IMG/VR virus record: IMGVR_UViG_3300017605_000348
Span: 1 to 43,321 of that record
Length of the DNA stretch: 43,321 nucleotides
Strand: one strand, 5' to 3'
Source of the DNA: a virus
The notes under the pieces are model-generated. The model saw nothing but the letters and a program-made list of their open reading frames with translations, was not told where the DNA came from and did not search any database. The number at the start of each line of letters is the position of its first letter. Position 1 is the first letter of the stretch. Of this stretch, positions 25,987 to 29,474 are shown in pieces. The translations under genes were made by a program, and so were the position numbers.

Positions 25987-26934
25987 GTGAAGCACGGCTC
26001 ACTGTGTACAGGCTACGGCGGACTCGACATGGCCGCACAGACCATCTTCGGCGGCGGGCTGGCTTGGGTGTCCGACATCGACCCCGGACCGATCGCCCTC
26101 CTGGCCCACCACCACCCCGACGTCCCGAACCTCGGCGACCTCAAGGTCATCAACTGGGCAACCGTCGAGCCCGTTGACATCCTCACGGCCGGCTACCCCT
26201 GCCAGCCCTTCAGCAACGCCGGACTCCGAAAGGGCACCGATGACCCCCGACACCTCTGGCCCTGGATCGCCACCGCCGTTGGCGTACTTCGACCCCGAGT
26301 CGTACTCCTGGAAAACGTCGCCTCCCACCTCCGGAAAGGCTTCGAAGTCGTTCTCGCGGACCTTGCCGCCCTCGGGTACGACGTCGCGTGGTCTGTTGTT
26401 CGCGCTTCCGACGTTGGCGCCCCTCACCAACGGTCCCGCCTCTACGTCGTTGCGACTGCTCAAGACTCCGACCTCGAACCTCGGATCGAACGGGGGACCC
26501 CAGCACCCGGACAAGCGGAAAGCGGGCGGACACGGACCGACGCTGGAGGACGAGGTGTACGCGATGTCCTTGTTCCCGACGCCGAGAGCCTCGGACGGGG
26601 AGAAGGGCGGACCGAACCAGCGGGGGTCGAGCGGGGATCCGATGCTGCCTACGATCGTGAACCGATTGACTGGCAAGAGTTCGAACCCGCCATCCGCCGA
26701 TGGGAACGCCGCCTAGGTCGTCCGACCCCGGCTCCCTCGGTGCTCGGTCCACGCGGTGGCGTGAAGGTGGCCCCGGCGTTCGGAGAATGGCTGATGGGCC
26801 TGCCCGAAGGACACATCACCGGCGTACCCGGACTGTCGATCAACGAGCAACTGAAGCTCGTCGGCAACGGCGTCGTCCCTCAGCAGGCCGAACACGCCAT
26901 CCGGTACCTGGCCGGAGAGCTGGGGTTGTTGTGA
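25987..26934 (+). CDS. DNA (cytosine-5-)methyltransferase
   Basis: A 315-residue C5-type DNA methyltransferase. Motif I is G-Y-G-G-L-D (9-14), motif IV is P-C-Q-P-F with catalytic Cys72, motif VI is E-N-V (109-111), motif VIII is Q-R-S-R-L-Y-V-V, and motif X is G-N-G-V-V-P near 291-296. It methylates C5 of cytosine, probably to evade host restriction. The target recognition region (about 160-235) is short and is coded in DNA that also contains an open second frame (see the overlapping gene). GTG start; AGAAGGA lies seven bases upstream. The next gene starts within its last four bases. Confidence 0.92.
   Translation: MKHGSLCTGYGGLDMAAQTIFGGGLAWVSDIDPGPIALLAHHHPDVPNLGDLKVINWATVEPVDILTAGYPCQPFSNAGLRKGTDDPRHLWPWIATAVGVLRPRVVLLENVASHLRKGFEVVLADLAALGYDVAWSVVRASDVGAPHQRSRLYVVATAQDSDLEPRIERGTPAPGQAESGRTRTDAGGRGVRDVLVPDAESLGRGEGRTEPAGVERGSDAAYDREPIDWQEFEPAIRRWERRLGRPTPAPSVLGPRGGVKVAPAFGEWLMGLPEGHITGVPGLSINEQLKLVGNGVVPQQAEHAIRYLAGELGLL
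26240..26716 (+). CDS. possible overlapping gene inside the cytosine methyltransferase
   Basis: In the +1 frame relative to the methyltransferase an ORF runs to 26716. ATG 26240 has GAAAGGG five bases upstream, giving 158 residues; the frame itself is open from TTG 26174. The product shows features familiar from phage methylase-linked proteins (from memory): Y-F-D-P-E-S-Y-S-W-K-T-S (near 17-28), a T-L-P-x-S-G-T-T stretch, and L-F-P-T-P-R-A-S-D-G-E-K-G-G-P-N near 111-126. Long chance ORFs are common in GC-rich DNA, so the ORF alone proves little; the ribosome site and recognisable motifs raise its odds. Confidence 0.45.
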   Translation: MTPDTSGPGSPPPLAYFDPESYSWKTSPPTSGKASKSFSRTLPPSGTTSRGLLFALPTLAPLTNGPASTSLRLLKTPTSNLGSNGGPQHPDKRKAGGHGPTLEDEVYAMSLFPTPRASDGEKGGPNQRGSSGDPMLPTIVNRLTGKSSNPPSADGNAA

Positions 26935-27377
26935 GGTCAGTACCTATCCACGGGGAGCTGACCGAAGACGGACGCCGGGTCGTGCTCATGGCCGCGGGGA
27001 TGTTCGCCGACGATGTCGAGCGGGTCGGCCGGCAACTCGGCCTGCTCACCCCTACGCCGAAGCCCACCGAGCCCAAGGGCGGCATCAGCTTCCCCGTCTC
27101 CTGGGCGCTGTGCGTTCAGTTGGCCATGACGTTCGGTTCCTCCTGGCACCCCGGCCCCCGGCTCAAGGCGTGGATCCTCGACCAGGTCCAGCGGCGCTCG
27201 TTCGAGTCGGCCCCCCTCACGATCTCGCTGCCCGACGGCTTGGTGCCCCGCCCCTACCAGGTGGACGGCGCCCAGATGATCGCGGTCCAGGGGTCATGCC
27301 TCATCACCGACGAGCCCGGGACCGGCAAGACCATCACCACGATCCTTGGCCTGCTCGAACGGGCCTCAACTTCCTGA
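26931..27377 (+). CDS. SNF2-type helicase, N-terminal part (motif I only)
   Basis: A 148-residue protein starting at GTG in a GTGA overlap with the methyltransferase. It carries R-P-Y-Q-V-D-G-A near 105-112 (Q-motif region) and a P-loop G-T-G-K-T (130-134), then ends soon after L-G-L-L-E-R-A-S. The remaining helicase motifs are absent but appear at the start of the gene at 28131, after the inserted adenine methyltransferase. It is therefore the first piece of a split helicase. Whether the halves assemble is unknown. Confidence 0.8.
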   Translation: MRSVPIHGELTEDGRRVVLMAAGMFADDVERVGRQLGLLTPTPKPTEPKGGISFPVSWALCVQLAMTFGSSWHPGPRLKAWILDQVQRRSFESAPLTISLPDGLVPRPYQVDGAQMIAVQGSCLITDEPGTGKTITTILGLLERASTS

Positions 27378-27393
27378 AGGGACAGAGGCAAAT

Positions 27394-28134
27394 ATGCGCT
27401 ACATGGGCGGCAAGAGCCGACAGGCCAAGCACCTCGCTGAGATCATCAATGCGTACGCCTCGACGGCCACCGCCTACTACGAGCCGTTCCTCGGTGGGGG
27501 CTCGGTGTTCGAGCTGGTGGCCCCGAAGGTTCCCCGCCCCTTCGCGTCCGATGTGCACCCTGACCTGATGCTGATGTGGCAGGCCCTCCTTGACGGCTGG
27601 CAGCCCCCCGAAGCCGTGTCCCGTGAGGAGTACGCAGAGCTGAAGTCGGCTGAGCCGTCGGCGCTTCGTGGCTTCGTCGGGTTTGGTTGTTCGTTCGGCG
27701 GGAAGTGGTTCGGTGGCTACGCCACGTCCCGGGGGGACGACTACTGTGGAGCGGCCCTGCGTGGTGCCCTGCGTAAGACGGCGGCTATGCGCGAGGGAGG
27801 CGCCCGGCTGGCCCTCCGGAGTTACGCGGATATAGACCCCGAGCCGGGCGCCCTCATCTACTGCGACCCTCCGTATGCCGGCACCACGAAGTACACAGGC
27901 ATCGATGCGTTCGACCACGGGGGGTTCTGGGACAGGGTAGTCGACTGGGCCATTGCTGGTGCCACGGTGCTTATCAGCGAGTACGACGCGCCCGCTGGTC
28001 CGGTCTGTGTCTGGCAGAACGCAGCCAAGAAGTCCCTTTCCAAGGGCACCAACACCGCGCCCTCCGTGGAGCGGCTCTACGCCGTCGGGGGCGGAACGTT
28101 CACCCGGGCGCTGTCGGGTCTGGTGGCGGCATGA
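27394..28134 (+). CDS. DNA N6-adenine methyltransferase, D12 class (Dam-like)
   Basis: A 246-residue Dam-type methyltransferase. It has the N-terminal R-Y-M-G-G-K-S motif (2-8), motif I Y-E-P-F-L-G-G-G-S (about 33-41) and motif IV D-P-P-Y at 158-161. It transfers a methyl group to N6 of adenine, possibly GATC-like, though the target is not readable. AGAGG lies six bases before ATG. The gene sits exactly between the two halves of the SNF2 helicase and overlaps the second half by four bases, so it seems to have been inserted into a formerly continuous gene. Confidence 0.9.
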   Translation: MRYMGGKSRQAKHLAEIINAYASTATAYYEPFLGGGSVFELVAPKVPRPFASDVHPDLMLMWQALLDGWQPPEAVSREEYAELKSAEPSALRGFVGFGCSFGGKWFGGYATSRGDDYCGAALRGALRKTAAMREGGARLALRSYADIDPEPGALIYCDPPYAGTTKYTGIDAFDHGGFWDRVVDWAIAGATVLISEYDAPAGPVCVWQNAAKKSLSKGTNTAPSVERLYAVGGGTFTRALSGLVAA

Positions 28135-29474
28135 CCTCCACCTTCCCCGTCGTCGTCATCTGCCCAGCGTCCGTCATGGACCCCTGGGTGCGCGCCTGGC
28201 AGGCCTGGGCCCCGCACCTGCGCACGGTGGCGTGGCGGGGCACTCCGGATCGCAGGCGGCAACTGAGCGGCGCTGCTGACGTGTACGTGGTCAGCTATGA
28301 CACGGCCACCCGCGACATCGGCACCGTCGCCAAGCCCGGCCCGCTGCTCAAGATGGCACCAGCCAGCCTCGTGCTCGACGAGTGCCACCTGATCAAGAAC
28401 CCCAACTCGAAGCGGTCCACCCACGTTCGACGGCTGGCGAGCAAGGCGGGCACCGTGGTCGCGCTGTCCGGTACGCCCATCACCCACAACCCGAGCGACC
28501 TCTGGCCCACCCTGGTAGCGCTCGACGGCGACGCCTGGCCCGCTCGGGAACGCTGGGTCAACCGCTACTGCGAGACCGTGCCCGGAGACTACTCGGACAA
28601 GATCCTTGGGCTCGACCCGGACCGGGAGCCGGAGTTCCGTACCGCGCTGCTCGGCCAACACCGGCGGGTGGCTAAGGCGGACGTGCTAGACCAGTTGCCC
28701 CCCAAGGTGTACAGCACCCGAGAGGTCGAGCTGCCCGCCGGGTACCGCAAGGCGTACGACGACCTTGAGCGGGACATGTTCGCTAGGATGCCAGACGGCC
28801 AGGAGCTCGGCGCCGGTCTGATCCTCACGGTCATGGGGCAACTGTCCCTGATCGCCAGCGCGGCGGCCGACGTCGAGGTCACCTACACGCCAGAGCTGGA
28901 CGAGCAGGGAGTTCCGACAGGGCTCCAGAAGCCGCACTATCACGTCGAACTGAAGGCCCCTAGCTGGAAGGTCGACGCTCTGCTTGAGGTGCTGGAGGAG
29001 CGGCCCGCCAAGCAAACGGTCGTGTTCGCGCCGTCCAAGCAGCTCATCATGCTGGCTGGGCAGGCGGCCACCGCGGCGGGTTACCGGGTCGGCTACATCG
29101 TCGGCGGCCAGTCGCCCAAGGCACGCACGGCCACAGTGGACAGCTTCCAGGCGGGCGGGCTCGACGTCATCTGCGTCACGACCCAAGCCGGGGGAGTGGG
29201 CATCACCCTCACCGCGGCGAGCACGGCCGTCTTCCTTCAGCGGCCTTGGTCCCTTGTGGACGCTCTCCAGGGCGAGGACCGGCTGCACCGGATCGGCGCC
29301 GAGCACCACGAGTGCATCGAGATCATCGACATCGTCGCGTCCAACACGATCGACAGCCGGGTCCGCACCATGCTCCGCGAGAAGGCGGGACAACTGGCCG
29401 ACCTAGTCCAGGACCCCCGGATCGTGGCCGAGCTACTCGGTGGCGAGTCCGTTACCCAGCAGGGGAAGAAATGA
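28131..29474 (+). CDS. SNF2-type helicase, C-terminal part (motifs Ia-VI)
   Basis: A 447-residue protein starting in an ATGA overlap. It begins directly with motif Ia (V-V-V-I-C-P-A-S), then D-E-C-H (83-86, Walker B), S-G-T-P-I (motif III), V-V-F-A-P (motif IV), T-T-Q-A-G-G-V-G-I-T-L-T (motif V) and Q-G-E-D-R-L-H-R-I-G (motif VI). These are SNF2/DEAD-like ATPase motifs; the family acts as translocases or helicases on DNA. Motif I is missing here and lies in the gene at 26931-27377. It needs that part to bind ATP. Confidence 0.9.
   Translation: MTSTFPVVVICPASVMDPWVRAWQAWAPHLRTVAWRGTPDRRRQLSGAADVYVVSYDTATRDIGTVAKPGPLLKMAPASLVLDECHLIKNPNSKRSTHVRRLASKAGTVVALSGTPITHNPSDLWPTLVALDGDAWPARERWVNRYCETVPGDYSDKILGLDPDREPEFRTALLGQHRRVAKADVLDQLPPKVYSTREVELPAGYRKAYDDLERDMFARMPDGQELGAGLILTVMGQLSLIASAAADVEVTYTPELDEQGVPTGLQKPHYHVELKAPSWKVDALLEVLEERPAKQTVVFAPSKQLIMLAGQAATAAGYRVGYIVGGQSPKARTATVDSFQAGGLDVICVTTQAGGVGITLTAASTAVFLQRPWSLVDALQGEDRLHRIGAEHHECIEIIDIVASNTIDSRVRTMLREKAGQLADLVQDPRIVAELLGGESVTQQGKK

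Follow-up and report, generated by a model that had tools for sequence, protein, structure and literature searches.

The stretch of DNA analysed here, in the following referred to as the window, is a virus record of 43,321 bases which contains genes for a siphovirus-type tail, a resolvase and a primase-polymerase. Its plus strand harbours, from GTG 25987 to TGA 26934 (25987..26934), a gene encoding a C5-cytosine DNA methyltransferase of 315 amino acids whose reading frame is designated frame 0. This assignment is based on the match to PF00145 (E 2.5e-34), which stops at residue 164, and on the presence of motifs I, IV (PCQ), VI (ENV) and VIII (QxRxR). Furthermore, residues 1-309 match phrog_363 (E 3.5e-65), TIGR00675 scores 102.9 bits at a cut-off of 100.65, and a C-terminal HMM of frame 0 covers 26668-26916 with 129 bits. 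A first-pass annotation made from the sequence of the window had described the catalytic motifs of this frame as intact, and we indeed find PCQPFS at 26197-26214, LENV at 26308-26319 and QRSRLY at 26428-26445. Motifs I to VIII are followed by a non-conserved spacer, an IX-like element (GEWLMGLPEGHIT) and the X-like GNGVVPQQ, motifs IX and X being assigned by pattern. Between motifs VIII and IX, frame 0 of the window lacks a conserved target-recognition domain; the spacer located there (26458..26665, plus strand) varies freely and constitutes an out-of-frame reading of the PTP repeat units described below. At 26931-29474, an SNF2-type helicase looks split: a Walker A-like motif is located in its N-terminal part (26931-27377), and the SNF2 and C-terminal helicase portions are encoded at 28131-29474. 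A D12 adenine methyltransferase gene between them (27346-28134; PF02086, E 5e-14) seems to sit inside the helicase.

Within the cytosine methyltransferase gene, the +1 frame of the same strand contains a nested gene of 158 codons (26240..26716) which is conserved across loci and extends from ATG 26240-26242 to TAG 26714-26716. It is preceded, at a distance of five bases, by the Shine-Dalgarno-like sequence GAAAGGG (26228..26234, plus strand), and relatives possess such a site at the same place; coordinates, codon number and ribosome site had been given correctly by the first-pass annotation. The N-terminal domain of the nested protein (26240..26455, plus strand; HMM 88 bits) is of the FAxFDPxSxSWKTS...WPRSGMTRxGxxYELPT type and lies over frame-0 motifs VI-VIII, throughout which the +1 frame is open. 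It is followed by two PTP units, of which at least one is required for assignment to the nested family and of which related proteins carry one to several according to the pattern LLPTPxAxDxxxGxPxxR...L..V. Unit 1 (26456..26569, plus strand; LLKTPTSNLGSNGGPQHPDKRKAGGHGPTLEDEV) is nearly letter-perfect in +1 across 46 occurrences, while frame 0 varies there and contains stops where the methyltransferase ends early. Unit 2 (26570..26668, plus strand; LFPTPRASDGEKGGPNQRGSSGDPMLPTIVNRL) was examined by comparing the window with its sister L008, as described below. The peptides Y-F-D-P-E-S-Y-S-W-K-T-S and L-F-P-T-P-R-A-S-D-G-E-K-G-G-P-N, assigned by the first-pass annotation to phage methylase-linked proteins, are both present and are genuine family motifs, as the nested product of the window matches phrog_1008 with E 9e-17. 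This profile, labelled DNA methyltransferase, also matches other nested products and mixes nested-protein sequence with the methyltransferase C terminus, its two-frame origin not being stated. No convincing match of the nested product was obtained in PDB, Pfam, NCBIfam or PADLOC.

Part of the first of these peptides carries less weight than had been assumed. W-K-T-S largely results when LENV is read in +1, just as P-T-L-A-P-L-T results when DVGAPHQR is. Since both are partly forced by frame-0 motifs they are weak evidence alone, and as mirror images of these motifs we set them aside as stand-alone evidence. The length of the open frame is likewise of limited use. From stop to stop, the +1 stretch of the window measures 241 codons compared to a mean of 143 in 1000 synonymous-codon shuffles (p=0.026); the same length test yields p=0.38 for the +2 frame. 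The warning that GC-rich DNA readily produces chance ORFs was hence fair with respect to one sequence. Because the ORF of the single window is only mildly unusual and these two peptides mirror motifs of frame 0, we turned to relatives.

Matches to the +1 product are found in 103 GenBank phage records, 17 viral contigs and 26 Streptomyces-type loci. It is matched in 26 of 297 actinomycete genomes, and a related query in 80 of 395 genomes of the Streptomyces family. In nearly all of 104 non-redundant loci the nested protein is encoded in the +1 frame of the methyltransferase, the two exceptions being L018, where an indel intervenes, and L138, whose frame likewise appears disrupted. To avoid selection through the +1 protein, 80 viral contigs were chosen by the frame-0 protein only. 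The +1 domain is present in all 80 of these loci, and between DPRHLW and motif VIII none of them has a stop in +1 while every one has in +2. The frequent +1 stops in homologous methyltransferase genes by which overprinting might have been disproved therefore do not occur. The GC content of these loci ranges from 0.48 to 0.67 and is mostly near 0.5. When 50 non-redundant loci were shuffled, a +1 stop arose in 97% on average; none is observed in the real sequences. Nested ORFs with shuffle p values of 0-0.01 are moreover found in phages or plasmids of Paenibacillus, Lacticaseibacillus, Acinetobacter, Leptospira, Klebsiella, Salmonella, Pseudomonas and Streptococcus, whose GC content ranges from 0.38 to 0.61. 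No shuffle excess is seen in two control phages, KP27 and CcrKarma, or in those mycobacteriophages for which ORF length was the only measure. In two Streptococcus phages (L173 1448-1870 and L178 1532-2014; GC 0.38-0.42) the nested +1 ORF is devoid of PTP units and motif IX of frame 0 is canonical; these ORFs may represent a distant branch of the nested family.

The pattern of substitutions indicates which frame is under selection. Among 18 Streptomyces genes, the synonymous difference in frame 0 amounts to about 0.30 outside the overlap and to 0.13-0.25 over motifs IV-VIII. Within the repeat unit it falls to 0.00-0.04, with a nonsynonymous difference of 0.2-0.33, a pattern opposite to that of an ordinary gene. 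In an independent set of 52 freshwater-type viral genes, diversity at four-fold sites drops from 0.58 to 0.375 (p 3.7e-5). Unreduced synonymous variation, the other finding named beforehand as speaking against overprinting, is thus not what either data set displays. When the window is compared with L008, 12 of the 16 differences between unit 2 and the C terminus fall on third codon positions of +1, and identity over this segment is 45/48 in +1 and 35/47 in frame 0. In a leave-group-out profile test, the +1 N-terminal domain of the window scores 64.8 bits compared to 21.2+-9.3 for shuffled sequences (0/500 reaching the real value), the real domain outscores almost every shuffle in all 33 genes tested, and a control region upstream of the overlap reveals no excess. 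As the +2 frame over the N-terminal domain also exceeds its null (z 4.1 compared to 4.9 in +1), this test shows constraint on the nucleotides rather than on a particular frame, and we discarded it as frame-specific proof.

A second line of evidence is provided by the start signals. The window exhibits an internal start codon with a Shine-Dalgarno site at the conserved position, AAGG being placed six bases upstream of ATG 26240 as in its own lineage; the sister L008 has no ATG at this position. In Streptomyces the nested gene starts with a GTG, located behind GGAGG or AAGG, which is formed by the glycine codon GGT in 19 of 19 genes (72 of 850 glycines elsewhere), these and the following counts being taken from related sequences and hence not representing independent events. 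An ATG at -16, considered as universal start, proved wrong outside Actinobacteria, as in freshwater viruses the start is located another 36 codons upstream. There, ATG is present in 45 of 46 cases and makes use of the histidine codon CAT in 35 of 36 (117/195 elsewhere), while the Shine-Dalgarno site GAGGT is formed with the glutamate codon GAG in 39 of 39 (84/361 elsewhere); here too the sequences are related to one another. Two lineages accordingly maintain different start sites through different rare codons. In Saroj, the GTG start comes immediately after a +1 stop, which excludes frameshifting upstream there. We consider the PTP repeats and the codon choice at the start sites as the decisive evidence. 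Altogether, comparison across relatives strongly supports that the +1 frame is coding and that several lineages conserve a separate start and ribosome site for it, and thereby the suggestion of the first-pass annotation that both frames are used and that the gene is overprinted.

The arrangement of the two frames differs between relatives. In the layout of the window and of Streptomyces prophages (a), the nested protein terminates after the PTP units, and motifs IX and X reside in frame 0. In a second one (b), represented by ArV1, phiBT1, Orcanus and others, frame 0 does not extend beyond motif VIII, and it is the nested protein which continues through IX-X. In a third one (E), that of freshwater and enterobacterial phages, frame 0 has motif X, and an IX-like LNPxWVEWLMGFPxGWTDL or a variant thereof forms the end of the nested protein. 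Saroj, DLane and Streptomyces prophages possess further PTP units in frame 0 between motifs VIII and IX. The N-terminal domain is constantly encoded in +1, and in every layout which has PTP units these lie between motifs VIII and IX, where a recognition domain would be expected. L008, which is 73% identical to the window in frame 0, carries a different PTP unit as unit 1 in the same +1 frame, which looks like an exchange of modules. Two Streptomyces loci contain, downstream of the overlapped pair, a second copy of the N-terminal domain with PTP units (L129 2195-2944, 27.0 bits; L195 about 2140-2857 on the reverse strand of the locus, 48.5 bits), and no methyltransferase frame runs across either of them. 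These free-standing copies, possibly a second specificity subunit, identify the N-terminal domain as a protein in its own right and not a shadow of frame 0.

Some loci deviate from these layouts. In L018, L019 and L022 an indel relative to their kin fuses the N-terminal methyltransferase motifs with the +1 frame, be it by assembly error, decay or real fusion. In about a dozen actinomycete loci (L132, L139, L142, L182, L189, L192, L196-L198, L204-L208) the first methyltransferase motifs, the remaining motifs and the nested domain are each located in a different frame, so that all three frames of one strand seem to be used. In phiBT1 (L004 1694-2744), gp9.1 bears the annotation of a possibly inactive methylase; the C-terminal half which it lacks, comprising PTP units, IX and X, is intact in +1, where it is unannotated.

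What does the nested gene encode? Since frame 0 of the window has only a drifting spacer at the site of the recognition domain, we infer that the overprinted gene at 26240-26716, with its own internal start, probably encodes the small (beta) subunit of a two-polypeptide methyltransferase and that this subunit supplies target recognition. Frame 0 would then give rise to a catalytic subunit devoid of a conserved target-recognition domain in the window, to which the nested protein would bind through its N-terminal domain, while its PTP units would supply target recognition. These units would be swappable between phages, changing specificity, and because a single mRNA would serve for the nested translation of both subunits, these would stay linked and be expressed together. 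It is the position of the units, their modularity and precedent which point to a role in DNA recognition. AlphaFold models of the nested proteins from a viral relative and from the window are poor (pLDDT 63 and 60, respectively; pTM 0.22) and reveal no usable fold, so that they lend no support to DNA binding or subunit contact. To the broader notion of a modular PTP-repeat specificity subunit which is nested in methyltransferases of phages and mobile elements from several phyla, with units swapped between phages, we would give an even chance.

A translated nested gene might instead regulate or inhibit the methyltransferase or counter host defence, which we regard as unlikely, albeit to be taken seriously. 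The presence of IX- and X-like motifs in frame 0 of the window, which might thus act alone, speaks against a subunit role and suggests that catalysis might need no partner; the Streptococcus relatives, with canonical motif IX in frame 0 and nested proteins lacking PTP units, point the same way. Such a role, however, does not account for PTP units that occupy the recognition-domain position in all layouts having them and can be fused in frame to the methyltransferase, for nested proteins of layout b that carry motifs IX-X, or for the lack of conservation in the frame-0 spacer of the window.

The two remaining explanations dispense with internal initiation or with the nested protein altogether. 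Programmed +1 frameshifting, by which the methyltransferase N terminus would be fused to the +1 sequence, finds some support in purine-rich Shine-Dalgarno-like sites ahead of the transition, and the indels of L018, L019 and L022 do fuse the frames; yet rare codons preserving starts and Shine-Dalgarno sites at different positions in two lineages, the +1 stop directly before the GTG start in Saroj and the existence of free-standing copies render it very improbable. A chance ORF, whose +1 similarity would only reflect the conservation of frame 0 in GC-rich DNA, would be in keeping with the mirrored WKTS and PTLAPLT, with the mild length statistic of the window (p=0.026) and with the shuffle excess in +2. 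We give it hardly any credence and reject it for the family, as repeat units are conserved in +1 only, cases of low GC content are known, start codons are maintained, relatives are free of +1 stops and free-standing copies occur.

Long genes nested on the same strand are thought to be rare in bacteria and phages, and annotation pipelines usually drop one of the two frames. The recurrence of such a gene within a very common one, with starts kept by rare codons, offers an easy test bed for the sharing of DNA by two proteins. Should the +1 protein prove to be the recognition subunit, the part which decides on the target would have been left out when many orphan phage methyltransferases were annotated and cloned, and its lack could explain why some, such as phiBT1 gp9.1, were called inactive or possibly inactive. 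If the modular-subunit reading is true, one stretch of DNA encodes a catalytic core and, one base over, an exchangeable reading head. For Paenibacillus phage Tadhana (54/55), Arthrobacter phage ArV1 (067a/067b) and Streptococcus phage pST, both overlapping frames are annotated as methyltransferases in GenBank, these records being annotation only, and our literature search returned no paper on the overlap, on the signals at its start or on how widely it occurs. Beyond the first-pass annotation, the overlap is found in phages of several phyla, is annotated in some records and has a product which looks like a recognition subunit.

M.EcoHK31I is a two-polypeptide C5 methyltransferase of YGGCCR specificity in which the gene of the small polypeptide overlaps that of the large one in another frame. 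Like the system described here it thus has a second small polypeptide beside the catalytic one. A search of plasmids for M.EcoHK31I retrieved no identifiable copy, and the comparison is one of layouts: many viral relatives (L028-L104), with motifs I-VIII and X in frame 0 and an IX-like end of the +1 protein, look alike. In the window, by contrast, frame 0 includes motif IX and the nested protein lacks it, so that the M.EcoHK31I arrangement, in which IX is confined to the small polypeptide and the large one has I-VIII and X, is not present. Natural C5 methyltransferases consisting of two polypeptides comprise M.AquI as well as M.EcoHK31I (PMC3404938). For the latter, the predicted recognition domain was placed in the large subunit (PMC3404938), in contrast to its putative assignment to the small one here. 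The alpha/beta split of M.AquI is resembled by the relatives of layout b (ArV1, phiBT1, Orcanus, L011, L014), in which frame 0 ends after motif VIII and both the variable region and IX-X are found in the second polypeptide. Applied strictly, this split is found in L001, L004, L006, L011 and L014 but not in the window, whose frame 0 runs through X. Unlike in M.AquI, the second gene starts far within the first and encodes an additional N-terminal domain, which lies over motifs VI-VIII. The window is therefore no strict member of the M.AquI or the M.EcoHK31I type, and we file it as a variant of the two-polypeptide C5 methyltransferases.
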